This document shows positions 3,217-23,299 of a DNA stretch of 24,686 bases, one piece after another (position 1 is the first letter of the stretch; every line of letters starts with the position of its first letter). The DNA is taken from positions 1 through 24,686 of the forward strand of contig LJUY01000050.1 in assembly GCA_001304015.1 (NCBI GenBank), in the 5' to 3' direction. The notes under the pieces were generated by a model. It worked only from the letters and a program-made list of their open reading frames with translations, was not told the DNA's origin and did no database searches. This stretch comes from a candidate division Zixibacteria bacterium SM23_81. GTDB taxonomy: Bacteria; SM23-81. Position numbers and translations under genes: made by a program.

Positions 3217-4734
3217 CTATCGTAACAACAAAAGCTTTTTTACAATTAGTTGGCTACCGGCCCGGAGAACATAAAGATATACCCCACTGGCTACTCGGTG
3301 CCCACTTGTATCCATACCATCCCATAGGACTTGATAGCTACCAGCACTTTTCTGACCATTTTGTAGAAGTCGGACCAATTGACCCTGAATATTGAAAATT
3401 CCTAGATGAACCCAGCAGGGGCGAGCAAGTCGATAGCGAATAACCGTAAAGTTGTTAAACGGGTTGGGATAATTTTGGCTCAACCAGAAGTTCTCTGGCA
3501 GTAAGCGTTCATCCTCGTCTTCATACACTTCAGTAGGTGGAATAGTAGCTTTGGTCACAAAGAGGTTATACTCCCCGTGGCGATTGTCAATAAAGGCTAC
3601 ATACAGATGTCCAGAATCATCTATTGTTATTTCTCCCACATCTTGCTCATAGAGTTGATAACTCGAATCCACCGGCGATATCCTTTCTCCAAAAGTTGTT
3701 CCACCATCCACTGACCGGACTACAAAGATATCAGAACTATCAGTTCCAACCTGATAAAGCACGAACAGTCCATAGAGTCGATGGTATGCTATCTTTGGCC
3801 TGCTCTGCATCCCTTCTATCATACTGTTTACCCGTACTTCTTCTGAAAAGCTTACTCCCCCATCGAATGATTTGGCAAGATAAATATCGCGATCCCCCAT
3901 CCTATCGTCAGACCACGTCACGTAGATAGTGTTCGTTTCATCCACCGTGATGGCTGGATCCGTCACACCGTAATGCCCCATCAAGGGTGCCTCAGATACC
4001 AGGACTGGTTCAGCGAAGGTAGTACCTGCATCGGTTGATTGGGAGAAGTAGATGAGGTCTGGCTTACTATAGTCAAGTGAATCAGCCCGAAAGACAATAT
4101 AGATGGTGTCTCGGCCCACCGACTGGAAATCAGGAAACCAACCCGGCCGAAGACTCGAGGGATTCACGGGAGTCTCGTAACGCTGTGAATAATTGCCACA
4201 ATAGAGAACAATACAGTTCAACCCAGGTGCCCATAGAGAAGGTACATACACAGTGCCATTTTCATCTATTGCTATTGTTTGTCGTTCTGTTCCGTTAGAG
4301 AGGCCTACAATATGACTCGATTCGAAGCTCAGCCCACCATTGAGCGATTGGGAAATGTGAATAGAAGCATCTGTTGTCGATTCCCAGATATAGTACTGCC
4401 ACACCACCCAGGGATTGTCTTGGGGATCAAAGGCTAACGCGGGACACGCGCGCATATCCCACCAATGTTGAAGTGGTGAATCGCAGACCACCACTTTCTG
4501 CCAAGATTGCCCCTCATCTTCTGATTTGGCAAAATTGACAATATCATTGTCAGGAGCCAAGCTGATCCATGTCACTCCCACGTTACTATCGCTATCTAAG
4601 GCAATGTCGGCGTATCTGAGCCCCCATCTTGCTACTGTACTGGTATCCACCAGCACGTCAGGACCAAAGGTTTGAGCAAAGGTGATATTCACGAAAGCCA
4701 GTAGCAGAGTTGCGAGTATAAATAATCGTTGCAT
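3217..4734 (-). CDS. Secreted Asp-box (BNR/sialidase-like repeat) protein with C-terminal sorting domain
   Basis: 505 residues. A signal peptide covers residues 1-20 (cleavage after ITFA). Five Asp-box motifs of the form SxDxGxxW/F are visible: SEDEGQSW (71-78), SLNGGLSF (130-137), STDAGTTF (233-240), SFDGGVSF (289-296) and SVDGGTTF (341-348). They predict a beta-propeller of the sialidase/BNR type. No RIP-type arginine motif or clear sialidase active site was seen, so enzyme activity is uncertain; it may bind glycans or proteins. The last ~85 residues form a FlgD-like/type IX-type sorting domain beginning NYPNPFNNFTVIRY, ending exactly at KKLLLLR. The ATG is preceded by GAGG at a spacing of 7. 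A strong promoter candidate lies about 370 bases upstream. Being 24 bases ahead of a polysaccharide lyase gene, it may take part in glycan breakdown at the cell surface. Confidence 0.8.
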   Translation of the reverse strand: MQRLFILATLLLAFVNITFAQTFGPDVLVDTSTVARWGLRYADIALDSDSNVGVTWISLAPDNDIVNFAKSEDEGQSWQKVVVCDSPLQHWWDMRACPALAFDPQDNPWVVWQYYIWESTTDASIHISQSLNGGLSFESSHIVGLSNGTERQTIAIDENGTVYVPSLWAPGLNCIVLYCGNYSQRYETPVNPSSLRPGWFPDFQSVGRDTIYIVFRADSLDYSKPDLIYFSQSTDAGTTFAEPVLVSEAPLMGHYGVTDPAITVDETNTIYVTWSDDRMGDRDIYLAKSFDGGVSFSEEVRVNSMIEGMQSRPKIAYHRLYGLFVLYQVGTDSSDIFVVRSVDGGTTFGERISPVDSSYQLYEQDVGEITIDDSGHLYVAFIDNRHGEYNLFVTKATIPPTEVYEDEDERLLPENFWLSQNYPNPFNNFTVIRYRLARPCWVHLGIFNIQGQLVRLLQNGQKSAGSYQVLWDGMDTSGHRVASGVYLYVLRAGSQLIVKKLLLLR

Positions 4735-5380: not shown

Positions 5381-6364
5381 TCACCGGAGCAACACCAGCT
5401 TCCTGGTGAGAGAGACCTTTTCGGACTGTAACCAGCAGAAATAGATGCCGCTCTCCACCTCCCTTCCACCGCTATCCCTGCCATCCCAAGTCTGAACGTA
5501 GGATCCCGCCGAGAGAGAGCCCTGCACCAGGGTTCTCACCAATTGGCCACCAACGTTGTAGATGCCTATCTCGACCTCGGCTTCAGGAACCTGATACCCG
5601 ATGGTCGTCTGGGCGTTGAAAGGATTTGGGTAAGGAGGGTGGAGCGCGAAATCCTGAGGCAGCGAAGATTCTGTATCTTCCCCCTCCACAGAGGTAATGG
5701 GGGTTCCGGTGATGACGATCTCGTCGATGGCCATGCCAAATCCCATGGGTGTGCCGCTATCGGAGATAAACCAGAACTCGATGAGCACACCCGAGTGACC
5801 CAGTAAGCCCGCCAGGGAGATTAACGAATCCGGAGGATACCAGAGCCTCCCCCAATCTCCGGTCCACACCTGCGTCCCCCCTGGGTCCAAATTGATCCAG
5901 TCACCCCCCGGATACTTCGCATAGACGGCGAATCCCTCGTCAATCGCCTCCATGGTGCCCAGATAGTACAGGTGGGCTTCGCTGTAGTTGAGAAGATCGA
6001 TAAAGATCTGGTAGCCCACATCGTTCCCGTCGCTGTAACCCGTGCTATCGTCCCCGATGGAGCAGAAATAGCTATCCTGGGGCGCCGTGATCCATTCAGA
6101 TGAGCTGTGATGCAGGACCCGTTTGGTGACATGCCACTCATCCGGCGAACTGCTGCCGTTGTAGTCGAAATTGATCCCCAGGGAATCTCCCGGTTCGAAG
6201 CCGCTATACCAGATGGTATCTCCCTGTGCCGCTGAGGAGAAATCGTAACTACCAGGTGCTTCTCGCTCCCTCCTTCCCCCGGCCACTTGGTGCGCCTCAG
6301 CCCAAAGGACCCAGACCATCACCGTCATGGCCAAGGCGATGCCGACAACCTTTGCATAGCGCAT
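5381..6364 (-). CDS. Secreted jelly-roll-like protein with C-terminal sorting domain
   Basis: 327 residues. A signal peptide is at about 1-25 (VVGIALAMTVMVWVLWAEA). The body (about 50-225) has a pattern rich in W, G and D (GDTIWYSGFEPGD, SGVLIEFWFISDSG, AIDEIVITG) that resembles MAM / immune-inhibitor-A-type carbohydrate- or protein-binding sandwiches, but no enzyme motif is visible. The C-terminal ~85 residues are a type IX-like sorting domain with PYPNPFNAQTTIGY and the terminus RKLVLLR. GGAGG lies 5 bases before the ATG. The gene starts 15 bases after the protease-barrel gene, so it is the last gene of the murA operon, and the terminator at 5186-5212 follows. The specific function is unknown. 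Confidence 0.75.
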   Translation of the reverse strand: MRYAKVVGIALAMTVMVWVLWAEAHQVAGGRREREAPGSYDFSSAAQGDTIWYSGFEPGDSLGINFDYNGSSSPDEWHVTKRVLHHSSSEWITAPQDSYFCSIGDDSTGYSDGNDVGYQIFIDLLNYSEAHLYYLGTMEAIDEGFAVYAKYPGGDWINLDPGGTQVWTGDWGRLWYPPDSLISLAGLLGHSGVLIEFWFISDSGTPMGFGMAIDEIVITGTPITSVEGEDTESSLPQDFALHPPYPNPFNAQTTIGYQVPEAEVEIGIYNVGGQLVRTLVQGSLSAGSYVQTWDGRDSGGREVESGIYFCWLQSEKVSLTRKLVLLR

Positions 6365-6379: not shown

Positions 6380-9300
6380 TTAGAACTCCGCGCCAAGAGA
6401 GAAGTAGGTCTTCGGTTTTGCGGAAACACGATCAAAGTCGGTCTTCCAGGCGGCATCGAAGCGCAGCACGAAGATGCCCAGATTGGCTCTGGTCCCAAAG
6501 CCAAAACCCGTTTTGAGATCCTTCAGGCGAGGGCCGCCTTCCGTGGTCCCTCCCTTGAAGGCCTCCGTACGGTCCCAGGCACTGCCCGCGTCCAGAAACA
6601 AGGCTCCATTGACTTGACTGATGCCAAAACGCAGGGGCCAGTGAATGAGCAGATAATCGACGAAAGGATATCGGAATTCCAGGTTTAACAAGCCAAATTT
6701 GGAGCCCTGAAGCTCGTTATAATCATAGCCCCGCAAGGGTGTTATCCTGGAAGAGAAGTAGATATCCTCCACCGTGTAATATTGGTCACCGCGGAAGAAA
6801 TCTCCGCCCAGCCAGTTGGAGGTTCCTCCAAGATAGAACCTCTGTGGGGCATCGCCCCGGCTAACCCCTGCCGTCAGTCGATACACGAAATTGTATTTCT
6901 TGCGGTAGTCGATGTAGCGCCGGCGATCAAACTGCACTGTGATATAGGATTTGGAGTTTCCGCTGAAGGAAGGAGCGTAATCCGTCGTCAACATCATCCG
7001 CGATCCATTGACGGGACCTGTGTTTCCCCACAAGGCTGTATCGTGCACCAGGGAACCAGATAGCTGATAGAGTCGGGTCACGGAATCATCTTTGGGTGGA
7101 TCGAAGTAGTGGCGGTCGATGGTCATAGATAATATGCTCACATCCAGACGGTTGAATTTGTCGAAGGGTCTGGACAAAGAGAGATAACCGCCGTAGAGAC
7201 GGTCTGAGAATAAGCGATCTTGCGCATCCAAGAAGAAATTCTTCAGGTGAAAGAAGCCCACGCCGTAGTCGATTCTCCGGGGAAGATAGTAGTAAGCCAC
7301 CTGAAAATCGCTCTCTGACAAAGAATAAAAGAGGCTGGTCAACAGGTAAAAACGGTGGTTGCCCAATAGGTCGCTGATGGCCAGCATCGACTCACCTTGA
7401 AAACCGTAATAGGTGTCGTAGCCCACATTGCCTGTCAACACATCGGGTGAGAACCTCACGCGGTATTTCCGCGGGCCCAGGACCGCCTGCACGGTGTCGG
7501 CAGAAAAGGAAGGCATAGAATCAAGTCCCGCCTCCTGGGTTAAAAGGCTGTCCTTTTGAAACTCAGTCAGCTGGTATACGAATGCGGCACTATCCGATGG
7601 CTCCGAGGTGGGCAGACTGTCGGCCGCAGAGAAGGTGCTCTCCACTGGCTCTCTTTGTGTGGTCACGAAAACCGTCGGCTCCAGCTCCTCCGTGGCCAAG
7701 CGGTGATCCAACGGGTCTTTCAGCACATACAGATCCCAACCACCTTTTTGAAAGTAGGAAAAAGCCAATCTTTTCCCGTCAGTGGACCATGAGGGCGAGA
7801 AACAGCCGCCGAGAACATCTGTCACGGGGTAGCTGTCCTTCTCCTCCAGGTCTACGATGTACAAATTGCTGATGCCATTTTCATCGGAGGTATAACAGAT
7901 CTTATCCCCCTGAGGAGACCAAGTAGGAGATCTCTGCTGACCCTCTGCCAGCACCACTGGATCAATCTGGCCCGTGGAAAGGTCCATGACGAAAATGTCG
8001 TATTCCCCATAAGAGAAGGCCGAGTCAATTGCCCCTCCAGGATCCCTCAGACGATCGGAGGAAAAGGCAATTTGACCCCCGTTTGGAGACCATGCGGGCT
8101 CCGCATCGTCATAGAAGTCCTCGGTTAGGCGGGTCAGCTGGCCCGTCTCGATCTGGAGCAAATAAAGATCGGAATACCCATTTTTGAGGCCATTGAAGAC
8201 AATCTCACCTCCCTGGGGGGACCAAGATGGAGATGAGAGCAAATCCAGAGGAAGATGAAACTTCTCGACCACCTTCCTGTTCTCCACGCTCAACAAGCAA
8301 AGGGCATCTTTTCCTCCACTCTTGGCGACGAAGACGATCTTAGAACCGTCAGGCGACCAACCTATGGAACTCCTGAAGTAGCGTAGAGATTCCAGCCCTC
8401 CAGAGCGCTCTCCTTTGACCAATCGATCCAGAACCTGTCCGTCGATGGCCGAGATGAGATAAATATCCGTATAGTCGCTTTTGTTCGAGAAAAAGACCAG
8501 TCTGCTCCCCTGGGGCGAGAAGGCGGGCTTGAGATTGAAATTGGAGCCATCCTTTGTATGGTCGGTGAGCTGGCGGGCAAAATCACCGATTTCTTGACGG
8601 CGGGTTATCTCGGGCCAGTATTGCATCCGCATACTCCGGCTCCACTCCTCATCCAGCTCCTCAATGCCCATGCCGATAGAAGATTTCATGGCCTTATCCA
8701 TGTTCTTGTGCAGTCTGGCCTTGCTCAAGATCTCGCCCAGCTTTTCCCCACCGTACCTGTTTGCGATGTACCTGATCACCGACTGACCTTGCTTATAGAC
8801 CATATACCCTCTCACATACAAAAGAGGATGGAGATAACCGTGGATGGTAGCGTCGCGTATGATCATATCGGAGTTCTTGTCCCAATCCAAGGATTCATAT
8901 TCTGAGAGGCCTTCCACAAACCATAGTGGAGGCATAAAGAAGTATTGACGCCGCAGCAAAGATTCTACCACTCCGCCATACAGCGTGTTCATCATGATGG
9001 CGTGGGTCAGCTCGTGGTGAAGTACATGCCGATATTCTTCGTATGAACCCGTGTGGGGCATGACCACCCTGTATTTAAAAAACTCTGTAAAACCTCCCAC
9101 CCCTTCCTCCAGCAATTCAAGGATCACATTGGTCTGCTGAAAATCATTTTGGGAGTTGTACAGGATGATGGGCACTCTTTTTTGAATCTCACTTCGAAAA
9201 TCCTTCTGAACCTCCCGGTAAGCACGCTCACAATACTGGGCCACAAACTGAGCTAGCTCCTCACCCCCCGGATAAAAATAGATATCAAAATGGGAGGTTT

Positions 9301-9427
9301 GCAAGTAAGACCAGTTAAAAGACTTATATTGGACCTTGTTCTTGCCGAAGCCCTGTGCCATGCCCACAAGGGGCAACAGCAATATCATGACACCAGCTAT
9401 CAGGAGAGACCGTCTCATGCGAAACAT
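6380..9427 (-). CDS. Gluzincin (peptidase MA-like) / TolB-type propeller / BamA-like outer-membrane barrel fusion
   Basis: 1015 residues. A signal peptide covers 1-24 (cleavage after GMAQ). Residues ~35-280 form a zinc-protease domain with HELTH at 138-142 and the third ligand in WFVEGLSEY (E172), the gluzincin arrangement of the peptidase MA family. Residues ~300-600 hold six PD40/TolB repeats (for example PAFSPQGSRLVFFS, IGWSPDGSKIVF, PAWSPNGGQIAFSS, PTWSPQGDKICYTS), predicting a six-bladed propeller. A linker rich in S, P and E follows. Residues ~655-1015 show alternating beta-barrel strands with GGTSNWLGGDF, LRGYDYNELQG, LFLDAGSAW and a final strand ending GAEF, as in the BamA/Omp85 C-terminal barrel. 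The protein should sit in the outer membrane with protease and propeller on one side; which side is not known. GAGGAG precedes the ATG. It follows the 134-residue membrane protein by 27 bases. Confidence 0.85.
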   Translation of the reverse strand: MFRMRRSLLIAGVMILLLPLVGMAQGFGKNKVQYKSFNWSYLQTSHFDIYFYPGGEELAQFVAQYCERAYREVQKDFRSEIQKRVPIILYNSQNDFQQTNVILELLEEGVGGFTEFFKYRVVMPHTGSYEEYRHVLHHELTHAIMMNTLYGGVVESLLRRQYFFMPPLWFVEGLSEYESLDWDKNSDMIIRDATIHGYLHPLLYVRGYMVYKQGQSVIRYIANRYGGEKLGEILSKARLHKNMDKAMKSSIGMGIEELDEEWSRSMRMQYWPEITRRQEIGDFARQLTDHTKDGSNFNLKPAFSPQGSRLVFFSNKSDYTDIYLISAIDGQVLDRLVKGERSGGLESLRYFRSSIGWSPDGSKIVFVAKSGGKDALCLLSVENRKVVEKFHLPLDLLSSPSWSPQGGEIVFNGLKNGYSDLYLLQIETGQLTRLTEDFYDDAEPAWSPNGGQIAFSSDRLRDPGGAIDSAFSYGEYDIFVMDLSTGQIDPVVLAEGQQRSPTWSPQGDKICYTSDENGISNLYIVDLEEKDSYPVTDVLGGCFSPSWSTDGKRLAFSYFQKGGWDLYVLKDPLDHRLATEELEPTVFVTTQREPVESTFSAADSLPTSEPSDSAAFVYQLTEFQKDSLLTQEAGLDSMPSFSADTVQAVLGPRKYRVRFSPDVLTGNVGYDTYYGFQGESMLAISDLLGNHRFYLLTSLFYSLSESDFQVAYYYLPRRIDYGVGFFHLKNFFLDAQDRLFSDRLYGGYLSLSRPFDKFNRLDVSILSMTIDRHYFDPPKDDSVTRLYQLSGSLVHDTALWGNTGPVNGSRMMLTTDYAPSFSGNSKSYITVQFDRRRYIDYRKKYNFVYRLTAGVSRGDAPQRFYLGGTSNWLGGDFFRGDQYYTVEDIYFSSRITPLRGYDYNELQGSKFGLLNLEFRYPFVDYLLIHWPLRFGISQVNGALFLDAGSAWDRTEAFKGGTTEGGPRLKDLKTGFGFGTRANLGIFVLRFDAAWKTDFDRVSAKPKTYFSLGAEF

Positions 9428-9454
9428 CGACGACTCCTCAAAATATAGAATGGC

Positions 9455-9859
9455 TCAAACCAACTTTCCCAGGATATATCCAATGACCATGCCCACCAGC
9501 AACGCCGAGACCAGAATGCGAGATTCAATGGCACTACGCACATAGCCTTTCCTCACGGACACCAGCGTAATCACGTAGGCCAGTCCATTGACGACCAGAA
9601 AGAAAGGAAGGGTGACGATGCTCACGATGAGCGGACCCAGCACGGGAATGAGAGCCACCAAAGCCAACAGAAAGGCAAAGGCTTGTGACAGCCAGCCTAC
9701 TACTAATACCACAAGGGCGATGATTCTTCCCTCAACGCCCAGGTATTTGGCCACCACAACGAAAACCACCAACAGAATGCCAAAGACCAGGGCCACTCTG
9801 TTTGCTCGGATATCGCCTTTCCCTTTTTCCTTGAAAAGCCACGGCACCTTGAGATTCAT
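9455..9859 (-). CDS. Small inner-membrane protein of unknown function
   Basis: 134 residues, not recognised. A charged N-terminal tail (~1-19, with KEKGKGD) is followed by hydrophobic stretches at about 20-42, 45-70, 71-98 and 112-132, so 3-4 membrane helices are expected. There is no signal-peptide cleavage site and no catalytic motif. The ATG overlaps the TGA stop of murA as ATGA (9856-9859), which points to translational coupling with murA. It could be an accessory membrane factor for envelope synthesis, but this rests only on position. Confidence 0.7.
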   Translation of the reverse strand: MNLKVPWLFKEKGKGDIRANRVALVFGILLVVFVVVAKYLGVEGRIIALVVLVVGWLSQAFAFLLALVALIPVLGPLIVSIVTLPFFLVVNGLAYVITLVSVRKGYVRSAIESRILVSALLVGMVIGYILGKLV

Positions 9860-11109
9860 ACTCTCACTCTTTGGATCTCCGCACCCAGCCCCCGCAGCTT
9901 CTCCTCAATTCTTTCGTAGCCCCGATCGATGTGATAGACCCGCAGGATCTCCGTTTCCCCTTGAGCCACCAGGGCCGCCAGAACTAGGGCCGCGCTGGCT
10001 CGCAGATCTGAGGCCATCACAGGAGCACCGCTGAGTCTTTTCACACCAGTTATCTTAGCCACGTTGGCGTCCAGTGTCACCTTTACCCCCAGTCGGCGGA
10101 GCTCGGGCACATGGGTGAACCGATCCGGAAATATGGTTTCGGTGATCACGCTGGTACCTTGAGCCAGGCTAAGCAGAGCCATGAACTGAGCCTGCATATC
10201 GGTGGGAAATCCCGGATATGGAGAGGTGGTCACGTTCACCGGTACCAGGGACGTGGGTCCTTCCACGACAAGGTTCCCAGCCTCTTGCCGAATCGTAACC
10301 CCCGCCTCAGCCATCTTGTCGATGACAGCACCCAGATGGTCTGCTCGAGCTCTCCTGAGGGTCACTTTGCCCCCCGTCATAGCGGTGGCCACCATGTACG
10401 TGCCGGCTTCGATTCTGTCGGGTATGATCCGCTCCCGAACAGCACGCAAGGTCTTCGCCCCCTGAATTTCCACCGTGCCGCTTCCCGCCCCTGAGACGGA
10501 CGCCCCCATGGAAGAGAGCATCTGGCCTAAGGCCTCGATCTCTGGCTCCCGGGCGGCATTGCGCAGCAGAGTGTTTCCCGAAGCTAAGCTGGCAGCCATC
10601 ATCGCGTTGGCAGTGGCTCCTACGCTGGACACATCGAAATCGATGAGGGCGCCTTGGAGTTTACCAGCCCGGGCCATGATATATCCGTGTTGGATCTCTA
10701 CATGAGCTCCCATCTCCTCCAAGATTTTGAGGTGCAGGTTCACCGGACGAGGGCCCCAGGCGCAGCCACCGGGCAGAGACACCCGGGCCTGCCCGAAACG
10801 GGCTAACAGAGGTCCCAGAACGTAAATAGAGGCCCGCATGGTTCGCACTAATTCGTAAGGCGCCTCCAGGTGTTCGATGCTCGAAGTGTCGATGATCAGG
10901 CTGTTCCCTTCTCTTTTGACCCGCGCTCCCAATACGCGGAGCACATCCGAAAAGGTGCTCACGTCCTTCAGATGAGGCACATTGAGCAAGGTGCTCTCTC
11001 CGGATGCCAGGATCGTGGCCGCCATCATGGGCAGAGCGGCGTTCTTTGCTCCGCTAATGTCCACAGCCCCTGCCAGCCTTTTTCCTCCGGCGACAACGAT
11101 CTTATCCAC
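9856..11109 (-). CDS. murA: UDP-N-acetylglucosamine 1-carboxyvinyltransferase (MurA)
   Basis: 417 residues from the GTG at 11107-11109, the usual family length. It transfers enolpyruvate from PEP to UDP-GlcNAc, the first committed cytoplasmic step of peptidoglycan synthesis. The substrate-binding pair K22-N23 lies in SGAKNAALP, and the catalytic cysteine C116 in LPGGCAWGPRPVNLHL (Cys, not the fosfomycin-resistant Asp variant). The C-terminus has DRGYERIEEKLRGLGA, typical for the family. The GTG is preceded by GTGGAGG at a spacing of about 4-5 and begins VDKIVVAGGKRLAGAV, a standard MurA N-terminus. An in-frame TTG at 11181 would add 24 unconserved residues, but it coincides with the -35 box of the promoter and has no ribosome site. 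First gene of a four-gene unit. Confidence 0.95.
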   Translation of the reverse strand: MDKIVVAGGKRLAGAVDISGAKNAALPMMAATILASGESTLLNVPHLKDVSTFSDVLRVLGARVKREGNSLIIDTSSIEHLEAPYELVRTMRASIYVLGPLLARFGQARVSLPGGCAWGPRPVNLHLKILEEMGAHVEIQHGYIMARAGKLQGALIDFDVSSVGATANAMMAASLASGNTLLRNAAREPEIEALGQMLSSMGASVSGAGSGTVEIQGAKTLRAVRERIIPDRIEAGTYMVATAMTGGKVTLRRARADHLGAVIDKMAEAGVTIRQEAGNLVVEGPTSLVPVNVTTSPYPGFPTDMQAQFMALLSLAQGTSVITETIFPDRFTHVPELRRLGVKVTLDANVAKITGVKRLSGAPVMASDLRASAALVLAALVAQGETEILRVYHIDRGYERIEEKLRGLGAEIQRVRV

Positions 11110-11152
11110 GAAGCCTCCACTGGTAGGATGAAAGTATGGCCTCTTATTTTTA

Positions 11153-11181
11153 AAAATATGGACAAGATTTGGGCTTGTCAA
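11153..11181 (-). promoter_or_regulatory. Promoter of the murA operon
   Basis: On the minus strand TTGACA (11176-11181) is followed by 17 bases and TATTTT (11153-11158, 4 of 6 to the -10 consensus). Transcription would begin near 11145, giving a leader of about 35 bases before the GTG start of murA. Confidence 0.6.
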
Positions 11182-11321: not shown

Positions 11322-12500
11322 TCAGCGCAGCAAAATCATCTTCATAACCTCTTGGTGATCGCCAAATTGAAGCATACAGAAGTAAAGTCCGCTGCCGCAA
11401 GCAAGCCTGTTCCGGGTACGGCCATCCCAGCTTACCCGGTACTCCCCCCGACTTTGCACCTCATCTACCAGCATCCCGATCAGGTTGCCGCGCACATCGT
11501 AAATTCGCATGGTCACGTGAGCATCATGAGGAATCTGGTAGCGAATTTCTGTACAACCGTTAAAGGGATTGGGATAGTTCTGGAAAAGGCGAAAGTCATC
11601 TGGCCAATCTCCTGCCTCCATAACAATTGCCGTAACGGGGCCATAGACGCTTTTATGACCCTGGAAGGTAACGGCCTCAAGCTGGTACTCGTAGGTCACT
11701 CCGGTCGATACTTCCTGATCCATGAACTGGTAGTGCAGCGGATTCTCAGAGTTGCCCTGGCCTGCGCTGGGTATCAACTCCGGGTTAATCTCGACAAATG
11801 GCTCCTTCGGAGAGCTCCTGCGGAGAAGATTGAATCCCAAATTCTGCCTCTCGTTCGCGGTAGTCCACTTCACAATCACCTGCCCTTGCCGGGCGGAGGC
11901 CGTGAAAGAGGACAAAGATACGGCAACCTGAAAATCGCTCCAGATCAGATCGGTGGCCCCTCTTATTTCCAAGTTGTAGATGACCAGCAGGTAAAAATAA
12001 ATCGCCTGGGGGTAAGACATTCGAAAATCGACGACTGGATTGGGATTGGGCGCCTCGGGATCGTAATACACAATCGCCTCAAAATAGTCGCCCTTTTCCA
12101 CCATATCTCGGTCAAACTGCTCCAATAACTCGTATATCAGGGCGGAGCTATGATCAAGGTTGACATGAGGGCCGCTGTTGATTAATAGCTCCTCCAGATC
12201 CCGGCGCAACATGCTGGCTCGAGTCATAGCACTATTCATCTCGCCAACTCCCAATTGCATAAACAGCCAGAAATGCCGTGTGGCTGGATGGGAGGAAATG
12301 GCGTTTTCTCGATAGGTGATCCAGCTAGGTGGATCCAACCAGTCTGAGTAAAACTGGAACCGCCCCGGAGAAAGACGCTCCTGACTGATGGCAAAATCGC
12401 AATTGCCCAACAAACCCATCCTGGCCGCGGATGAGCCGAAGAACAGGAGCGTGATCATAATGAGAAGGAGAAGCCAGGATAGGTGAGCTGTGAATCTCAT
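11322..12500 (-). CDS. Exported protein with FN3-like and C-terminal sorting domains
   Basis: 392 residues. A signal peptide or N-terminal anchor covers about 1-26 (LSWLLLLIMITLLFFGSSAA). Residues ~27-195 are not recognised; they are rich in aromatic residues and probably helical (FYSDWLDPPSWITYRENAIS, MLRRDLEELLINSG). Residues ~200-295 look like a fibronectin III-like sandwich of the kind placed before sorting domains (VSLSSFTASARQGQVIVKWT, TYEYQLEAV). The last ~85 residues are a type IX-like sorting domain with QNYPNPFNGCTEIRYQIP and the terminus MKMILLR. AGGGGG lies a few bases upstream of the ATG. It is transcribed alone: a terminator follows it, and no clear promoter was found in the 400-base intergenic region upstream. 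The biological role is unknown. Confidence 0.75.
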   Translation of the reverse strand: MRFTAHLSWLLLLIMITLLFFGSSAARMGLLGNCDFAISQERLSPGRFQFYSDWLDPPSWITYRENAISSHPATRHFWLFMQLGVGEMNSAMTRASMLRRDLEELLINSGPHVNLDHSSALIYELLEQFDRDMVEKGDYFEAIVYYDPEAPNPNPVVDFRMSYPQAIYFYLLVIYNLEIRGATDLIWSDFQVAVSLSSFTASARQGQVIVKWTTANERQNLGFNLLRRSSPKEPFVEINPELIPSAGQGNSENPLHYQFMDQEVSTGVTYEYQLEAVTFQGHKSVYGPVTAIVMEAGDWPDDFRLFQNYPNPFNGCTEIRYQIPHDAHVTMRIYDVRGNLIGMLVDEVQSRGEYRVSWDGRTRNRLACGSGLYFCMLQFGDHQEVMKMILLR

Positions 12501-12906: not shown

Positions 12907-13719
12907 TTGACGCAAACTGAGCCTATATTTAATCTTGATTCGTGCTCGCCGCAACAGACCAAGACGCGGAGGAAAAAGCTGCCCACCGAGGGAAAAATCT
13001 ATTTCATCTCCGATGCCCACCTGGGAGAAGATATCTCAAAAGTGGAGAAGTCCAAAGAGGAGCGCCTCATCGCCTTCCTTCGCCACATCGCTCAGGACGC
13101 CGCTTTCCTCTATGTTGTGGGCGACCTTTTCGATTTCTGGTTTGAGTACAAACAGGCGGTGCCAGCTCGTCACCACCGCGTTCTCCATCGGTTGGCCACC
13201 CTCGTCCAGCAGGGAATACATACTGTTTACGTGGCCGGCAACCACGACTTTTGCCTGGGACATTTCCTCAGCCAAGAGATCGGCATGGAGGTCTCTGCGC
13301 AGCCCCTGGCGGTTGAACATCACGGATTAAGGCTCTTTGTGGCCCACGGCGATGGCCTGGCCTCAAAAGATCGCGGATACCGCTTCCTTAAAAAGATCCT
13401 TCGACACCCCTTGAGCGTCTGGCTCTATCGCCAGGTTCACCCCGATATTGGCCTTCCCCTAGGCAAGTTGATCTCTGCCTCCAGCCGCGCCTATACTGAC
13501 CAGAAGGCCTTGAAAATGGTTGCAGAGTACGAACTGGCGGCGCGGCAGAAGCTTAGCCAGGGGTTTGATGCCGTGATCTTGGGCCATTCCCACTACCCCA
13601 TCCTTCGGCGCTTCGGCGAGAAGACCTACCTTAACATCGGGGACTGGATCACTCACTTTACCTATGGCATGCTCCAGGAAGGAAAATTGACCCTGGAAAA
13701 GTGGGAGAAAAACCTTTAG
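12907..13719 (+). CDS. lpxH: LpxH-like UDP-2,3-diacylglucosamine diphosphatase (calcineurin-like phosphoesterase)
   Basis: 270 residues from the TTG at 12907. The five metal-binding blocks of the calcineurin-like fold are complete: D36-x-H38 in ISDAHLG, GDLFDFW (72-78), GNHD (111-114), HGD (147-149) and GHSH (226-229). Their spacing and the GDLFDFW and GNHDFCLG forms match LpxH/LpxH2-type enzymes, which release UMP and lipid X from UDP-2,3-diacylglucosamine in lipid A synthesis at the cytoplasmic face of the inner membrane. Other phosphodiesterases share these blocks, so the substrate is inferred. The start is doubtful: TTG has a weak AAGG site. An ideally spaced GGAGG (12968-12972) points to an in-frame CTG at 12979, six residues before KIYFISD, where family members usually begin. 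It is the only plus-strand gene and its stop lies 4 bases from the convergent protease stop. Confidence 0.8.
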   Translation: MTQTEPIFNLDSCSPQQTKTRRKKLPTEGKIYFISDAHLGEDISKVEKSKEERLIAFLRHIAQDAAFLYVVGDLFDFWFEYKQAVPARHHRVLHRLATLVQQGIHTVYVAGNHDFCLGHFLSQEIGMEVSAQPLAVEHHGLRLFVAHGDGLASKDRGYRFLKKILRHPLSVWLYRQVHPDIGLPLGKLISASSRAYTDQKALKMVAEYELAARQKLSQGFDAVILGHSHYPILRRFGEKTYLNIGDWITHFTYGMLQEGKLTLEKWEKNL

Positions 13720-13723
13720 TCCG

Positions 13724-16700
13724 TTAACGAATTAAAGCCAGTTTCCCCCTTTTGGTTTGACCATTCGCCTCCAGAAGATAGAGATAGACTCCGCTGGCCA
13801 CAGGATGACCACCCTCATTCACCCCGGACCAGAGGATGGCCCCGTTCGTTTCCACCTCTTCCTTTCTCCAAACCAGCTCTCCTAACACGGTGAAAATACT
13901 CGCCGAGGCCTGGGAAGGCACATTGATGAATCTCACCACATCATCTCGGCTGGGAGAAAATGGGTTGGGAACGGCCGCAGCCTCCGCAAGATTGGCCGCT
14001 GCGTATGCAAAGGAAGCGGTGTTGCCCATGCCAGGGATGACCATTTTCTCCAGGGTCTCGCTCCAGATGTCGGCCACCGTGAGCACATACACAGATCCCA
14101 TGGCCTGGACGGGTGATAACTGCAGATGCACGAGATCCCCGTTGGCGGAATCCAGTCGAGCCTCTTTCACCACTACAGCCGGGACAATGCCATAATGGCT
14201 GGTATCCTGAGCGCTGCTCCCGTCCACGGGTTCGCTAAACAGAATATCCAGTTGAGTTCTGCCCAACAGATCGACGCGCTTGATGTAAAGGGGCTCAGGG
14301 AACGTATCTGCAGGCAAGGCAAAGGTGACCATCCGGGCATCGGCATCGATGGGCACCCCAGTCTTATCATGAACCTTACTAGCCGCTACCGTATAGAGCA
14401 CCTCTGGCTCCAGATTGAAATTCAGGCTCAACAAAGCCCTCTGGCCATCGCGATCCAAGATCACTGAAGAAGGAGAGCCGATGCCGCCGTCGATCCAATA
14501 GTGGCTAGCGACCTGGGCGGATGGATCCATGGCCTCGCTGAAACTCAGCGCCACATGACGCTGGGTGAGGACTTCGGCAGCCACTATCTGAGGAGGAGCA
14601 TTAGGCGTAGCGCTGACCACCGAGGAGAAAAAACGGCTTTCTCGGGATAGGGAATCCACGCTGGTGATGGCATACCAGTAAGTTTTTCCCTCCACCAAGG
14701 CAGAATCTAGGAAGGTTGTGGTCAGCAGTCCCACTTCTATGGCGTCAAGGTCATAATAGTCCAAGCCACGATAAAGATTATAGGAGGCCGCCTCCGGTAC
14801 CGCCACCCACTCTAGAAAGACTCGATGGTCGTCCAAAGGGCGAGCCACAAGGCCTGGGGGTGGAGGGGGAGTCTGGCCAGAATCGGCCCGCTCCAGGACG
14901 ATCATGGAGTCGGGACCGTTGAAGGCGATCTCCACCAAGCCGTCGCCGTGAAGATCTCCCACAAAGGGACGGTGCATAAAGCCGCAGGGAGTGTACCAGA
15001 CGGGCTGGAACGCGCCTTCCTCCGTCCGCTGAAAGACATAGAGATCTGGCAGGGCGCAGATAAGGATCTCTTTGTGTCCATCCCCGGTGAAGTCGGCGGT
15101 GACGATACCGTTGCCCTGACCGCCGACTCCCACCAGCTCCTGCGACCACTTGGCAACAAACTGATCGTCTTCCGTTGGCTCATAAACGCTCAGGCGCCAG
15201 TAAGTGGATCGGGGATCGAACACATCCGTCTCGTTAGCGGCCACCACAAACCAGCTTCCACCTCCCTCCAATGTGTCGCCAGGGGCTAGATAGCGGGCGT
15301 CCTCCAGGCCGGTGCTGTGAGACCAGGTGGCCTCGTAGGAGTCGTCTCCCGTCGTCTCGAAGATGAAAATGTCCCCATCGGAATCTCCGGCCAGAATCTC
15401 CGTTTTTCCATCCCCATCGAAGTCGGCCACTGCGAACCTGGTCCCGGTGCTATTTCTTCCCTCCGTGGGATTTGGCAGGCTGGCCATCTGCCTGAAGGTG
15501 TCGTCCCCATCATTTTCGAAGATGATCACGTCGGAGCCCACCTCGATCTTGGAGAGGATCTCCACGTGTCCGTCGCCGTCGGTGTCGGCCATCTGACTGC
15601 CCCAGACACCATGTTGGCTCCAAACTGGGTTTACGGGGTCCGGGAAACTGTTTGAATCGGGAGCCTCAAAGAGATGGATTTCGGCGAAACCGCCTCCCAA
15701 AATTTCCCGCTTGCCATCCCCATCGGCATCCCCCACATCCCAGACCAGATAGTCTGCCTCGCTTTGAAAAACCTTCTCAAGGCGACGGTCCTCTCCCATT
15801 TCATAGGCCATGGCCTTCCCATAGGCAGAGGTATCACTGAAGGCCATGAACAAGAGCTCTCGCTGCTCATCGCCATCCAGGTCTACGGGACTTTGAAATT
15901 GGTAGCCGGAGACAAGCTGATCCAACAGCAGGAACCCTCCCCGTTCCACCATGCGCAGGGGGGCCGAGAGGGCGTAATACTGGCCTTCATTATCGTCCAC
16001 TGTGGTCAGCCCGGCGGGATTGGTGCTAGCCACATATAACTGATAATCGCCGGACTCTAACTCCCCAGAGAGATCCAGAGAATGCTCCCGGGCCACGTGG
16101 AGGTCTTCGATGAAGGAGAACTCCTCCTCACCCTGGCGACGATAGAAGAGTTTGGCCAGGGTCTCGTCGTCCGTGTTCCATTCCACGAAGGCGGCGTATC
16201 CGTCCCCGTCCAGTCGGCGAACGGCCCGTATTTCCTCCAGAACAGGCGGGGTGTGATCCACATGAACGGCAACGCGATCCTCCACCATGAGCCCATCCGT
16301 CTGCCACACCCTCAGGCGGATGATGCAGCTGGTATCTGGAAGTTGAGAGACTCCTTCCCACACGGTGAGAGTCTCCTCCAAGGCCTGGACGCAGACGGGT
16401 TCAAGGATGGTGTTGAAGGCATAAATGGCGGGGCTGAGACCCAGGCCATAATCCAGACTGTAGCAGTCCATGTAAGGACCCAGCGCGGTGCCCACGATCA
16501 CCACCCGGGCATCGACGCCGGTTCCTGTCTGGGGTTGGGAGATCCGGACCACGGCAGTCCGCTCCATGCTCAGGGCTCGCAATCCGTCGATGCGTCCGCT
16601 CCCGTGCTCAGGATCCCAGCCGAAGGGCCCCAGGTCCACCGCTGAGGCGCTGATGATCTGCCTGACTTCCTCGCTGGAGAGCGTCGCATCTCTGGACAGC

Positions 16701-17977
16701 ACCAGGGCTGCCAAACCGGATACATGGGCCGTGGCCATGGAGGTGCCGCCCAATGAGCCGTACTCGTCATCGGGAAAGGTACTCAGAATAGAGGACCCCG
16801 GGGCCAGGACATCCAAATTCTGACCAAAACTGGAGAAGCTGGCCCGCTGATCATAAGAGGTCGAGGCCCCTACGGCCATGGTCTGGTCAAAGCCAGCGGG
16901 ATAATAGACGCCCCCCTGATCATCGTCGCTTACGTTGCCCGCCGCCGCTACCAAAACGCATCCCTTGGCGTAAGCATAGGCGATAACATCTCGGACCAGG
17001 GGCGAGATGCGCGGGTCTCCCCAGCTCATGTTGATCACCTGCGCTCCGTTGTCGGCGGCGTAAACGATGCCCGCCGAGACGTCGTCGTCCTCCAGAAAGG
17101 CCCCCAGGCTCATCCTGAATGCCGCCCGCAGGGGCATCAGCTTGGAATGCCATGAGATGCCCGCCACTCCGATGCCGTTATCAGTCATGGCGGCCACGAT
17201 GCCCGAGACGTGTGTGCCATGTCCCAGGTCGTCGTATGGGTCGTTGTCCCGCTCCCGATAATCGCCCAGGCCCGCGAATTGAGGGGCGTCGGTGAAGTCC
17301 CAGCCTCTGATGTCGTCCACATATCCGTTGCCGTCGTCATCGATGGCGTTGAAATCGGAGCTATCCACCTGTCCGTCGCCATTGAGGTCCTCTCCAGGAT
17401 TGATCCAGATATTGGCCACCAGGTCCTGGTGCTCATAATCGATGCCCGAGTCCACAATGCCCACGATCACCTCCTGGCTTCCCCGCTCGATGGTCCAGGC
17501 CGCTGGCATCTTTATCTTGGCCAGGGCCCACTGTTCGGGGTACAGGGAATCATCCGGCACCACGCAGAGCTGGTTGAGGTAGTTGGGCTGGGCGTAGACC
17601 ACGTGGGGATCGTGCCCATAGGCCACCACCGCCTCCTGGACATCCCGACCAGTTCCCAATTCCAGACGGTAGACTCGCGATAACTCCTCGGCTAGCTGAG
17701 CCGTCTGGACATCGTTCTTTCCCTTCCTCATGGGGAAAAGGAATCTCTCCATCCGGATGACCTGATGCCAACGATTCAGCTGGTCCAAACTGCTTATCTG
17801 TGTGCTTATCCCATCCACTTCGGCCTTGGGTCGCAATTCCTCTAGCCCCGGCCGGAGCTTGATCAAAATCTCTCCTGGAGCATAGGAGGGGGGCTCAGTC
17901 TCGGCCCGGCACCAGGCCAAAGGGCTGACCAGAATCAAGGCCTGGATCGTAAGCAAGATGACCTTACCTGGTCTCAT
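13724..17977 (-). CDS. Large secreted subtilisin-like (S8) protease with FG-GAP repeats, FN3, Ig-like and C-terminal sorting domains
   Basis: 1417 residues. A signal peptide covers ~1-25, then a propeptide-like part (~33-135, [12 protein letters not shown]). The S8 domain has all catalytic residues: D176 (VGIVDSGID), H253 (GHGTHVSG), oxyanion N348 (AAAGN) and S413 ([12 protein letters not shown]). A calcium-loop insertion lies at ~198-222 ([23 protein letters not shown]). Residues ~680-1030 hold at least six FG-GAP/VCBS-like repeats ([51 protein letters not shown]), predicting a calcium-binding beta-propeller. An FN3-like domain (~1045-1130), two SbsA-type Ig-like domains (~1133-1310) and a FlgD-like sorting domain ([13 protein letters not shown], ending GKLALIR) follow. 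GAGGAG precedes the ATG. Its start overlaps the end of the LeuD-type gene by 14 bases. It is probably a secreted or surface-bound protein-degrading enzyme. Confidence 0.9.
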
Positions 17978-18515
17978 CTTCTCCTCTTTTTAGGCCTCCA
18001 TCAACAGGACGAACAAGTTTGTGTGTGGCCAACTCCCTCTTAACGTGTGGAATCAGCCCTCCATCCTCCATGATGCCCATGACGAACGCCGACGGCGGGG
18101 GAAAGGAAAAGGAGCTTTCCCCGGCCATTATCTGTCCCTCAGCTAGATCTATGGTCACCGTCTGGCCGGCCTGAATCATCTCAGCCGCTTCCGGGACGGC
18201 CAGGGCTGGCAAGCCCTGGTTGATGGCATTTCGATAGAATATCCGAGAAAAGGATGTGGCGATAATGGCTCCCACCCCAGCATATTTGAGACAGGTGGCC
18301 GCCTGCTCCCGCGAGCTGCCACAACCAAAATTCTTCCCGGCCACGATCACGTCTCCCGGCGCGACCTTGTGGACGAAGCCCGGGTCGAGATCCTCCAAGG
18401 CGTGCTGGGCCATCTCCTGGGGATCGCTGATGGTATAGGTGTACTTGCCTGGGAAGATGACGTCGGTGTTCACGTCATCTCCGTATTTCCAGGCTTTTCC
18501 GCGAATGCGCTCCAT
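17964..18515 (-). CDS. leuD: LeuD-type small subunit, 3-isopropylmalate dehydratase family
   Basis: 183 residues from the ATG at 18513-18515, which has GGAGGT five bases upstream; a longer frame from 18554 would add 13 unconserved residues. [29 protein letters not shown] and ARAN-like [13 protein letters not shown] are hallmark segments of the swivelling small subunit of the aconitase superfamily (archaeal-type LeuD/HacB, ~160-185 residues). With LeuC it would isomerise 2-isopropylmalate to 3-isopropylmalate in leucine synthesis. Related pairs act on homoaconitate, methylmalate or dimethylmalate, and the specificity loop ([10 protein letters not shown]) was not diagnostic to me. It lies 35 bases after the LeuC-type gene. 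No leuA or leuB is in the window, so the substrate is not confirmed by context. Confidence 0.8.
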
Positions 18516-18550
18516 GTCGCACCTCCATAACCCACAGAACCATAATTCCC

Positions 18551-19807
18551 TCACAACATCTCCCGGGGGTCTGTGATCCTGCCGGCCACCGCCGAGGCCG
18601 CCACCGTCGCCGGGCTGGCCAGGTAGACGAAGGCCTCATTGCACCCCATTCGGCCCCGAAAATTCCTGTTGGCAGTGGAGAGACAGACCTCACCAGGAGC
18701 CAGAACGCCCTGGTGGGCGCCCAAACAGGGACCGCAGCCTGGATTGAGGATCACCGCTCCGGCCGCCGTCAACTCTCCCAAGATGCCCGCTGCCAGCGCC
18801 TTCCTGTAGACCTGGGCCGAGGCGGCAAGCACCAAAAGTCGTAAGCCGTGGGCCACTTTCCTGCCTCGGAGCACCTCAGCGGCCATCTGGAGGTCCTCCA
18901 GCCGACCGTTGGTACAGGTCCCGATGAGCGCTTGGTGGATCTCGGTATCCACTACCTCCTCAACTGGCTTGACGTTGTCAACGGTGTGGGGACAGGCCAC
19001 CTGCGGACAGAGATTATCCACACAATAGCTGTGGATTTGCTCAACCGGCGCCTCTGGATCCGAGGTCACCAATTCGTAGGATTGAGCTGGCCGACCTTTC
19101 AGCCAAGCCTCGGTTTTCTCATCGGCCTCGACGATGCCGGCCTTGGCCCCCATCTCGACAGACATGTTGCACAGGACCATCCGTCCGGAGATGCTCATCT
19201 GGCCTATGGCGGGTCCCCTGAACTCTACAGCCCGATACAGGGCTCCGTCGGCCCCCAGGTCACCGATGATGTGCAGGATGAGATCTTTGGCCGAAACTCC
19301 GCGAGGAAAGGACCCCGTGACCTGAATGACCATCGTCTGGGGCACCGTGAGCCATATCTGTCCGGTGGCCCAGATGACGGCTGCCTCGCTGCGGCCGATG
19401 CCCGTGGAAAAGGCCCCCAGGGCTCCATAGGTGGTTGTGTGAGAATCGCTGCCCAAAATTAAAGACCCAGGCACCACATGTCCCTTCTCGGGAACTACCT
19501 GATGGCAGATGCCCACGCCCACGTCGTAGAAATGGACCACTCCCTGACGGCGAACGAACTCTCTGATAACCTTATGATTGGTGGCCGTCTTTTCGTCTGC
19601 AGCGGGAACCACGTGATCTAAAACGATGACCAGCCGTCCCGGATCCCAGACGCTCTCGACTCCCAGCTGCTTGAAGTTCTGCGAAATGGCCGCGGTGTTG
19701 TCGTGGGTCAAAAGGCGATCTGGGGTGACGGTGACGATCTGGCCGGGAAGTACCTCGTCAAGGCCCGCCTTCTGAGCCAGTATCTTTTGACTCAGGGTTT
19801 GAGGCAT
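18551..19807 (-). CDS. leuC: LeuC-type large subunit, 3-isopropylmalate dehydratase family
   Basis: 418 residues, the length of archaeal-type/HacA-like LeuC (bacterial LeuC is ~470). It begins [15 protein letters not shown], typical of the family, with GGAGGTGA about 6 bases before the ATG. Three cysteines for a [4Fe-4S] cluster are visible: IGTCTNGR (~300) and NPGCGPCLG (~355-362). Other family segments are [31 protein letters not shown] and a terminal [11 protein letters not shown]. It should pair with the following LeuD-type subunit as a hydro-lyase/isomerase. Substrate assignment is open between isopropylmalate and related C4-C6 diacids. The start lies 50 bases inside the end of the upstream gene, an unusually long overlap that both reading frames support. 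Confidence 0.85.
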
Positions 19808-21006: not shown

Positions 21007-22302
21007 TTACTCACTCTGAGATACGATATGAGGCGTGACGAATATGACTAGGTCCTTCTTGGTGACCTCCTCCCGGGTATATCTGAACAGCAGGCCCAGA
21101 AGGGGAATGTCTTTTAACAGGGGAAGGCCCTTATTCACCTTGATGATGTCATGGGTGGTCAGCCCACCGATGACCGCCGTCTGGCCATCGGAGACCACCA
21201 CGCTGGTTTTTGCCCTCTGGGTGTTGATGATCACGCCCGCTCCGGGATCCACCTCATAGGAGCTCCGCTCCGGCTCCAATTCTAGCAAGATGGTCTGTGC
21301 CGAGGTGATGTGGGGAGTTACCGTCAGCTGCGTGCCCACCTCTTTCAGCTCGGTGACGACGTTGCCACGCTCGTCCAGCACCTTGAAGGGAACTTCCTGG
21401 CCCATGAGAATGGTGGCCTGCTTGTTATCCAGGGTGGTGATCTCGGGATGAGCCAGAATCTCGCCCTTGTTATCGCTGGCCAAGGCCGCCAGCAAAGCGT
21501 CTATATCATAACCATCTTCCAGGGTGCTGTAGGTAAACCGGCCGATGAGCTCCGAGACGCCGCTGGCGGTGTGCTGTTCCGCCCTTCTTTCATGAGCGTC
21601 GCCCAAAATACCCTCATCCGGGGAAACAAGCGGATCAAAATCAAATGCCCCTTCCTTGATGACCGACCAGTCAAAGCCCAGCTCCAGCAGGCTTTTGGAG
21701 TCCACCTCGAACAGCTTGGCGGAGATGGTCACCTGGGGCGTTTCCTGGTCCAGCTCCTGGACCATCAGAGCCACCAGGTCTAAATTCTCGGGCACGTCGG
21801 TGACGATGAGGGAGTTGGTCCGGGAGTCGACATCGATGCGGCCTCTTTTGGAGAGGGCCGAGACCAAGGGCTCCTGAAGCTCTTCAGCGGTGGCGTGTAC
21901 CACAGGTATGATGCGATGTTCCAGCTGAATCAGGTCTTGCTTCTCCTGCTCATACTTCTGAAGATCCAGATCTGACTTGTGTAGCTCCTCAACGGTCATA
22001 ACTCGGATGTACCCCTCCTCCTCCACAGCAGCCAGATGGCTGATCTTGGCGATGATCTCCAAGGCTTGTTGCCAGGTCACGTCTTTCAGCTGTACATCCA
22101 CCGCTCCCGTAACATATTGACTGGCCACGATGTTTCGACCGCTGAACTCAGACAGAAAGCGTAGCACCGCGTGCAAATCAGCGTCGTGGAGGTTCAGCGA
22201 CTTAATGACTCTCTCCTCCTGAGCCTCTCCCACCAGGGAGATGGCCATCAAGAGAAAGATCACAAGAACCACGTCTCTCCACAGGGCATTATGCCATGGC
22301 AT
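21007..22302 (-). CDS. pilQ: Type IV pilus secretin PilQ (short form without AMIN domain)
   Basis: 431 residues. A signal peptide covers ~1-27 (VVLVIFLLMAISLVGEAQ). An STN-like domain lies at ~33-95 (LNLHDADLHAVLRFLSEFSG, VDVQLKDVTWQQALEII), an N1/KH-like domain at ~125-190 (ELQEPLVSALSKRGRIDVD, SLIVTDVPENL), and the secretin domain at ~195-431 with VTISAKLFEVD, ILMGQEVPF, VGTQLTVTPHI, AVIGGL and LPLLKDIPLLGLLF. It forms the outer-membrane channel for the pilus. PilQ proteins usually carry one or two AMIN domains before STN; here none is present, and an AMIN domain instead sits on the preceding gene product. AGAGGT lies seven bases before the ATG. It is the last gene of the pil cluster and a strong terminator follows. 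Confidence 0.9.
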   Translation of the reverse strand: MPWHNALWRDVVLVIFLLMAISLVGEAQEERVIKSLNLHDADLHAVLRFLSEFSGRNIVASQYVTGAVDVQLKDVTWQQALEIIAKISHLAAVEEEGYIRVMTVEELHKSDLDLQKYEQEKQDLIQLEHRIIPVVHATAEELQEPLVSALSKRGRIDVDSRTNSLIVTDVPENLDLVALMVQELDQETPQVTISAKLFEVDSKSLLELGFDWSVIKEGAFDFDPLVSPDEGILGDAHERRAEQHTASGVSELIGRFTYSTLEDGYDIDALLAALASDNKGEILAHPEITTLDNKQATILMGQEVPFKVLDERGNVVTELKEVGTQLTVTPHITSAQTILLELEPERSSYEVDPGAGVIINTQRAKTSVVVSDGQTAVIGGLTTHDIIKVNKGLPLLKDIPLLGLLFRYTREEVTKKDLVIFVTPHIVSQSE

Positions 22303-22339
22303 CGTTTTTACCTCTTGTTCAGATTTTACAATATTAAGG

Positions 22340-23299
22340 TTACTGGGAAAGTTTCAAGATAACCGTTCGATCGAGCCCCCTCCGGTTCAATCGAAATACG
22401 ACCCTTTGCTCCTCGATCCGGGTCACATAGCCATACAGCACCCGGTCGCCTTTCCTGAGCACGTATCCGTTTTCCTTATCATCCTGAGCCAGGGCTCTGT
22501 ATCCGTCGACGCCCTGAAGAATGCCCACGATGGTCAGCTTTTCCACATTGGGAAGGGGAGCTTCGCCGAACGCCGTTTCCTGCTGTGCGGGCAACGAAAG
22601 AAAGGGGTCTCTTCGGCCGCCACTGCTGTATGAAACGGGCTCCCTGAAACCCAAAGCGAGCAGTTCGGGGGAAGATACCTTCTCCGGCTTCTGAGGTGCG
22701 GAGGCCTCTTCAGGGGAACCAGTCGAGTCTGGGGGACTGGGAGGGACCACGGGGGCTTTTTCCACAGCCTGAGGGTGCTCTTCAGGCGGAGGTTGAGTCT
22801 CACCCTGAACCTGCTCAACTGCCCTCTCGGGCTCCGGGACAACCGTCTGAGCACCTGCCACACTGTCGGCAGGGGCTTCTAACTGGATGACAAGTCGATC
22901 CTTCTCTCCCTCATGGAGACCCATCTGAAATGCTAAAAGTTTGGGCATATCCAAGACGATTCGCACCACAGGTTCGGGATAGGGGCGATACTGACTGGTT
23001 CGGATGCGAGTGATCAGCGGAGTTCCCAGGTTGACGAAATGATACCTGGGCAGAGCGTGCACCGCATCGGAGAAGTCCACCACCAGACGAGGCTCCGGCT
23101 CCCCAATGGCAAAATATCTATAGTTCACAGGGCCGTCGGCCTTGATGGTGATGGCAGGTCCCCTCTCCATACTGAACACTTCCAGACCGGTTACCCGATA
23201 GGCCGCCTCCGAAGGGCCGGTCAACAACAGAAGACCGGTTCCTATCAGAAGGATACCGAGCAGCCTCCTGGAGAAAAAATGTGTCCGGGTATCTTTCAC
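22340..23299 (-). CDS. pilP: AMIN-domain PilP fusion, pilus alignment protein
   Basis: 319 residues from the GTG at 23297-23299. A signal peptide or anchor covers ~10-32 (LLGILLIGTGLLLLTGPSEA). An AMIN domain spans ~33-145 (YRVTGLEVFSMERGPAITIK, EPRLVVDFSDAVH, VRIVLDMPKLLAF), the peptidoglycan-binding sandwich normally at the PilQ N-terminus. A proline/glutamate-rich linker (~148-210) leads to a PilP-like domain (~220-319) with GRRDPFLSL, KLTIVGILQG, YRALAQDD and YVLRKGDRVLYGYVTRIEE. PilP bridges PilNO in the inner membrane to PilQ. The start codon is uncertain: GGAGG lies 13 bases before the GTG but 7 before an in-frame ATT at 23303-23305. The gene begins 8 bases after pilO and ends 37 bases before pilQ. 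Confidence 0.8.
   Translation of the reverse strand: MKDTRTHFFSRRLLGILLIGTGLLLLTGPSEAAYRVTGLEVFSMERGPAITIKADGPVNYRYFAIGEPEPRLVVDFSDAVHALPRYHFVNLGTPLITRIRTSQYRPYPEPVVRIVLDMPKLLAFQMGLHEGEKDRLVIQLEAPADSVAGAQTVVPEPERAVEQVQGETQPPPEEHPQAVEKAPVVPPSPPDSTGSPEEASAPQKPEKVSSPELLALGFREPVSYSSGGRRDPFLSLPAQQETAFGEAPLPNVEKLTIVGILQGVDGYRALAQDDKENGYVLRKGDRVLYGYVTRIEEQRVVFRLNRRGLDRTVILKLSQ

Follow-up and report, generated by a model that had tools for sequence, protein, structure and literature searches.

Heinz and Lithgow divided Omp85 proteins into ten subfamilies in 2014, and the main text of their survey likens one of these, WD40-Omp85, to a fusion of BamA and BamB, with a TolB-like propeller N-terminal to an Omp85 barrel and no POTRA domain (PMC4104836). 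Supplementary tables S1 to S3 apart, WD40-Omp85 is described there without a peptidase domain, a split into classes, a gene neighborhood, or a link to the type IX secretion system (T9SS). The separate "Metallo" subfamily of the same main text rests on PF00149, which in Pfam is a calcineurin-like phosphoesterase. In PlpD, a patatin enzyme domain is joined to a POTRA domain and an Omp85 barrel (PMC11116518). BepA is a periplasmic zinc protease that functions in LptD biogenesis and in degradation at BAM (PMC8423444), and PorE/PG1058 is a multidomain component of the type IX system (PMC5053529).

We analyzed a 24,686-nucleotide stretch of DNA (contig LJUY01000050.1, here called the window) from candidate division Zixibacteria bacterium SM23_81. 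It encodes a 1015-aa protein (Table 1) in which one conserved chain carries both a protease and an assembly-type barrel; this chain occurs in many largely uncultured phyla, and its active site is fully conserved. Protein quality control and processing at the outer membrane have been described mostly in Proteobacteria, in which the protease and the assembly barrel are two different proteins. BepA has no barrel of its own. PorE/PG1058 also has a propeller but is not known to carry a protease domain or an Omp85 barrel. A sequence-only reading of the window implied that the combination of metalloprotease, propeller, and barrel was new. However, the main text of the 2014 survey had already named a propeller-plus-Omp85 subfamily (PMC4104836), whose order of propeller before barrel the 1015-aa protein shares, and our search of the open literature for a peptidase-WD40-Omp85 protein returned nothing beyond that survey. 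The additions made here to the known subfamily, described in that main text with propeller and barrel only, are the peptidase domain, which would give it a catalytic function, the class structure, and the T9SS link.

Architecture and predicted folds

The open reading frame (ORF) has the same ends as in the sequence-only reading. It combines a signal peptide, a zinc protease, a propeller, a linker, and a POTRA-less Omp85 barrel in one chain, an assignment that we regard as practically certain. This architecture is far beyond chance because the full domain order recurs in 134 distinct homologues; the search across FCB genomes that had been proposed earlier found it in many phyla. Residues 1 to 25 are the sole hydrophobic stretch of transmembrane length in the protein, and FGKNKVQY, a conserved family motif, follows them. 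The full-length AlphaFold2 model, made with 19 homologues (pLDDT 80.1, pTM 0.79), is folded in three regions: the metalloprotease domain, which is helical, a propeller spanning roughly residues 280 to 578, whose strands we counted as six blades, and 16 long strands at residues 659 to 1012.

Table 1. Features of the 1015-aa protein and its adjoining genes (window coordinates)
Feature	Position	Strand	Remarks
Class I peptidase-MA/PD40 propeller/Omp85 barrel protein, 1015 aa	6380..9427	-	
Signal peptide, residues 1-25, MFRMRRSLLIAGVMILLLPLVGMAQ	9353..9427	-	Cleavage site placed by eye
Zinc metalloprotease domain, residues 36-276, predicted gluzincin, collagenase M9-like fold	8600..9322	-	pLDDT 90; Z 17.7 to collagenase 8jt1
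HELTH, residues 138-142; zinc ligands H138 and H142, catalytic E139	9002..9016	-	Invariant in 134 homologues
E172, third zinc ligand, within WFVEGLSEY, 30 residues past H142	8912..8914	-	Invariant in 134 homologues; aligns with collagenase ColT motif
Y211, invariant, the probable catalytic tyrosine at the gluzincin site	8795..8797	-	
Six-bladed TolB-type beta-propeller, residues 280-578, PD40 repeats	7694..8590	-	Pfam, NCBIfam, model, structure matches
Linker, residues 594-649, low confidence, probably disordered, where POTRA would be expected	7481..7648	-	Model
16-stranded Omp85 barrel, residues 655-1015, terminal F1015	6383..7465	-	Pfam, model, structure matches
Omp85 loop-6 motif PLRGY, residues 897-901	6725..6739	-	R899 in 125/134, G900 in 129/134
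murA	9856..11181 (ORF as called)	-	True start probably GTG at 11109; homologues align from residue 23-25
134-aa multi-TM protein, between murA and the class I gene	9455..9859	-	No family
Secreted protein, FlgD/Por_Secre_tail domain, possible T9SS cargo	5381..6364	-	15 bases downstream of class I gene stop

Peptidase_MA_2 (PF13485) scores 32.3 bits on the whole protein, against a cutoff of 32.4, and 37.8 bits on the domain alone; 57 of 60 homologous protease domains match it at an E value of ≤0.01. Folded alone with the 60 homologous domains, the protease domain matches microbial collagenases best (Z 17.7, rmsd 3.3 over 223 residues), then M30 lugdulysin (Z 16.6) and M1 aminopeptidases. Its sequence profile, compared with solved structures, likewise puts collagenases first and aligns HExxH, W..EG.AEY, and the tyrosine of Y..G. 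E139 and Y211 are 72 residues apart, versus 73 for E242 and Y315, the residues mutated in lugdulysin entry 7bb9. The fold, HExxH, W..EG.AEY, and the conserved tyrosine are thus common to this domain, the M9 collagenases (ColT, ColH, Vibrio), and lugdulysin, whereas identity in the structural alignments is only 13 to 15%, neither sequence nor model showed an obvious collagenase activator domain, and the protease is fused to a propeller and a barrel. Both the M9 gluzincin site (HExxH, a Glu 30 residues on, and Tyr) and the fold are present, and the domain is, on the predicted structure, a gluzincin of the collagenase (M9) fold. HELTH and E172 had been read as intact, and this was borne out: none of H138, E139, H142, W169, E172, G173, and Y211 differs in any of the 134 distinct homologues that have the full architecture. 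We also looked for routine loss of HExxH, and it is never lost (134/134). The protease is very likely active, because in a family of this depth one would expect a dead enzyme to have lost some of these residues.

The PD40 propeller holds up as well. Pfam finds five PD40 stretches (E value, 6.5e-27), and solved TolB structures match at Z 28.5 with about 22% identity. The likeness to TolB is in the propeller fold, but the other domains differ, and the TolB equivalog score is 155 bits against a cutoff of 343. For the C-terminal Omp85-like barrel, Pfam Omp85 scores above its cutoff at residues 783 to 1015 (E value, 1.2e-11), and structure prediction, the check suggested beforehand, placed a barrel after residue 655. 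BamA structures match it at Z 23 to 25, that of Flavobacterium johnsoniae at Z 24.8 (rmsd 3.9, 315 residues aligned). The Omp85 strand motif F-D-G is present as LFLDAG, with D946 in 125/134 and G948 in 126/134 homologues. With this barrel and a constant HExxH, the proposal of a single chain that would anchor its own zinc protease, probably an active one, to the outer membrane stands.

No POTRA domain matched in the Pfam or NCBIfam scan of the 1015-aa protein, and the BamA equivalog score is 25 bits against a cutoff of 297, the POTRA array being absent. At least one POTRA domain is the stated criterion for the Omp85/TpsB superfamily (PMC11116518), and by it the protein falls outside; the 2014 classification, in its main text, admits POTRA-less subfamilies on the barrel alone (PMC4104836). 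PlpD likewise joins an enzyme domain to an Omp85 barrel, but its enzyme differs, and its POTRA domain (PMC11116518) has no detected equivalent here.

Paralogue classes and their neighborhoods

The scan found 542 relatives, of which 80 were kept; their labels are Zixibacteria, KSB1, Calditrichota, Ignavibacteria, Marinimicrobia, Latescibacterota, LCP-89, Kryptonia, Cloacimonadota, Eisenbacteria, and others. The same domain order is present in each genome of the small phylum to which the window belongs. The tree resolves class III as a clade of 18 members and class II as a clade of 16, each with support 1.0; a 17th class II member joins with weak support. It also contains a large class I group with moderate basal support (0.72) and a few divergent sequences. 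We count at least three old paralogue classes, which share one domain order and are spread over many FCB phyla, and two or three of them occur together in many genomes. Five members are present in the window's genome: the class I gene at 6380-9427, two of class II, one of class III, and one divergent. The same genome also encodes a BamA, two TamB-TamA-like pairs, and a patatin protein resembling PlpD, so that the 1015-aa protein supplements these and does not stand in for them. Replacement of BamA or TamA by it was rejected because of the full BamA and the two pairs. Each pair, a TamB with a POTRA-Omp85 protein, is separate (L205:2428-8309 and L206:4600-9961); the PlpD-like patatin-Omp85 protein is encoded at L208:4012-6714 (G000:C54).

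The sequence-only reading took linkage to murA and a small membrane protein as a clue to function and proposed looking for recurrence of murA. Recurrence was found in Zixibacteria and close kin and nowhere beyond them. murA is linked to class I in 22/22 Zixibacteria-labeled loci (directly upstream in 20 according to the gene calls, at a distance of three genes in another, and detected by tblastn only in the last), usually at a distance of 0 to 140 bases, as in near kin; it is also upstream in the window's own phylum and in a few unlabeled loci, in no other phylum, and never beside the other classes among the loci examined. The murA link is a lineage habit of Zixibacteria and close kin, because murA adjoins class I only there and other phyla differ. 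Ignavibacteria and several Bacteroidota-labeled loci have RNase R upstream of class I, mostly with a TamB-like gene beyond it; the Ignavibacteria gene was accepted as TamB-like on an NCBIfam E value of 8e-20 (below the curated cutoff) and a profile comparison at 96% probability, and had no Pfam match. KSB1 loci mostly carry a GWxTD gene downstream. In LCP-89, most Calditrichota, and some unlabeled loci, MlaE lies by class I, usually with MlaF and often with a cytochrome c assembly gene. Since the class I neighbors differ between phyla, none of them names a client.

Class II genes are followed by a BamB-like PQQ propeller gene in 14/17 loci. This pair, often with a PEGA-domain gene after it, is seen in L155, L156, L157, L158, L159, L161, L176, L182, L184, L022, L023, L027, and L032. 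Class III has PorV and/or a T9SS-type M6-like protein close upstream in 14/18 loci, the sortase PorU in five, and DUF5683 genes downstream, while class I has no adjoining T9SS genes. Among the T9SS-linked class III loci are ones from Ignavibacteria, Kryptonia, Calditrichota, Marinimicrobia, KSB1, LCP-89, and Latescibacterota (M6-like protein only). Outer membrane assembly and secretion are the common theme of the family's neighborhoods.

A conserved cluster, (PorU)-PorV-M6-like protein-class III-DUF5683 (×2), occurs in several phyla, including the window's genome at G000:C79 (L025:4634-11785), and is also found in L163, L164, L165, L167, L168, L178, L180, and L191. Near it, L025:13740-17198 encodes a protein of 1152 aa that matches SprA weakly (25.9 bits) and adjoins a POTRA-Omp85 gene; L194 has a similar pair beside its class I gene. 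Some class I genes, including that in the window, have "PorU" labels nearby; these are probably artefacts of a shared C-terminal sorting domain and were ignored.

SprA, the T9SS translocon, is present in the window's genome. In a 50-genome sample, SprA was above the cutoff in 29/29 genomes with class I and 0/21 without it. Among 109 genomes of Bacteroidota, the phylum holding Ignavibacteria, it was found in 58/58 class I genomes and in 72/73 genomes with any family member; the Fisher P values, 2e-13 for the family and 2.8e-10 for class I, ignore phylogeny and may make the link look stronger than it is. At the threshold used, the family is missing from 13 SprA-positive Bacteroidota genomes and is therefore dispensable for T9SS there. 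Divergent members also occur in genomes without detected SprA (G020, G031, G036, G038, G042, G043, G049, and G075). The class I family, and with it the 1015-aa protein, possibly tracks T9SS, and the association may reflect merely shared FCB ancestry.

A proposed role and its rivals

From the computed architecture and folds, the intact and constrained active site, the old paralogy, and the linkage to outer membrane and secretion genes, we infer orientation, activity, and clients with differing confidence. As a whole, the reading that we favor tentatively places the protein, through class I, in a family of outer membrane proteases found across FCB bacteria and has it act in quality control of assembly or secretion. 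The signal peptide would export the protein, and the 16-stranded barrel would insert in the outer membrane. A flexible linker would hold the gluzincin and propeller on the periplasmic side, in place of POTRA domains; this orientation is probable. The propeller would most likely recruit or dock a client or partner protein, and the protease would cut misassembled or immature outer membrane or secreted proteins at the assembly site. That its work is quality control or processing at outer membrane assembly or secretion sites, on clients of this class, is plausible but uncertain. The protein would then be a one-chain counterpart of Escherichia coli BepA at the BAM complex. The idea of a periplasmic zinc protease at an outer membrane assembly site is common to both, but BepA belongs to another peptidase family (M48), and the likeness is analogy, not homology.

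The main rival is a dedicated T9SS role, which we consider rather unlikely for the 1015-aa protein and which is best supported for class III, with its PorV and its M6-like protein bearing a T9SS-type tail (14/18 loci) and PorU in five. Class I genomes have SprA without exception, both in Bacteroidota and in the 29 elsewhere, as do all but one of the family-bearing Bacteroidota genomes, and the window's SprA-bearing genome encodes four proteins with T9SS-type C-terminal tails in the window itself. However, class I has no T9SS genes beside it, the co-occurrence counts take no account of phylogeny, and some divergent members live without detected SprA. Class I next to RNase R and TamB-like genes in Ignavibacteria and Bacteroidota-labeled loci, or next to MlaE/MlaF in LCP-89 and Calditrichota, fits instead a barrel that moves phospholipid or outer membrane protein with TamB-like or Mla partners, its protease only trimming; two ordinary TamB-TamA-like pairs elsewhere in the genome, and different lipid systems in different phyla, make such a partnership quite improbable. 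Peptidoglycan synthesis, the tie that the sequence-only reading drew from the murA operon for an envelope-upkeep protease, has in its favor murA directly upstream in Zixibacteria and near kin, often with an LpxH-like gene divergent alongside. With no murA adjacency in any other phylum or by the paralogue classes, and with the small membrane protein absent from every other locus searched, these neighbors lose their value as a clue to function, and we hold that tie very doubtful.

Delivery to the cell surface has a precedent that counts against the favored protease reading: for the Omp85 relative PlpD, the main text of the 2014 survey gives surface delivery of an enzyme domain as a proposal (PMC4104836). 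A barrel that brings protease and propeller outside to digest external protein would suit a protease fold that is that of secreted collagenases, and a PlpD-like protein exists in the same genome (L208:4012-6714). Yet it is difficult to see how a folded six-bladed propeller would pass through a barrel of 16 strands, the POTRA guide is absent, and the neighbors are biogenesis genes rather than nutrient uptake genes; we judge such export improbable. The same main text proposes for WD40-Omp85 proteins a BamA-BamB-like fusion as an insertase platform (PMC4104836), in which the protease domain would be kept only for structure. We give this almost no credence for the 1015-aa protein: a structural remnant does not need catalytic residues, which are present in every homologue, there is no POTRA domain, and the genome has a complete BamA.

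Surroundings of the gene in the window

The ATGA overlap of murA with the small ORF (9856-9859) and the 27-base gap between that ORF and the class I gene (9428-9454) are as described in the sequence-only reading. G003, the nearest relative at 72% identity, has 134 bases between murA and the gene and no small membrane protein ORF there. The 134-aa membrane protein has no homologue among the other loci searched and is private to the window's genome; with its absence in G003, it was rejected as a partner. Promoter and terminator scans were at chance level, and Rfam and tRNA scans of the window returned nothing. A promoter-like TTGACA-TATTTT lies at 11181-11153, and murA probably starts at the GTG rather than at TTG 11181.

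Four secreted proteins with FlgD-Ig/Por_Secre/CHU-type C-terminal tails, one of them a subtilase with FG-GAP repeats, are encoded on the minus strand (5381-6364, 3217-4734, 11322-12500, and 13724-17977), and all four are likely T9SS cargo. The LpxH-like calcineurin phosphoesterase gene at 12907-13719 (+) is divergent near murA and recurs by murA in several Zixibacteria loci. Also on the minus strand are an aconitase-family pair of large and small subunits (LeuC/LeuD-like, 17964-19807) and secretin, PilO, and PilN genes (21007-24603), which form a type IV pilus or type II-like assembly cluster.
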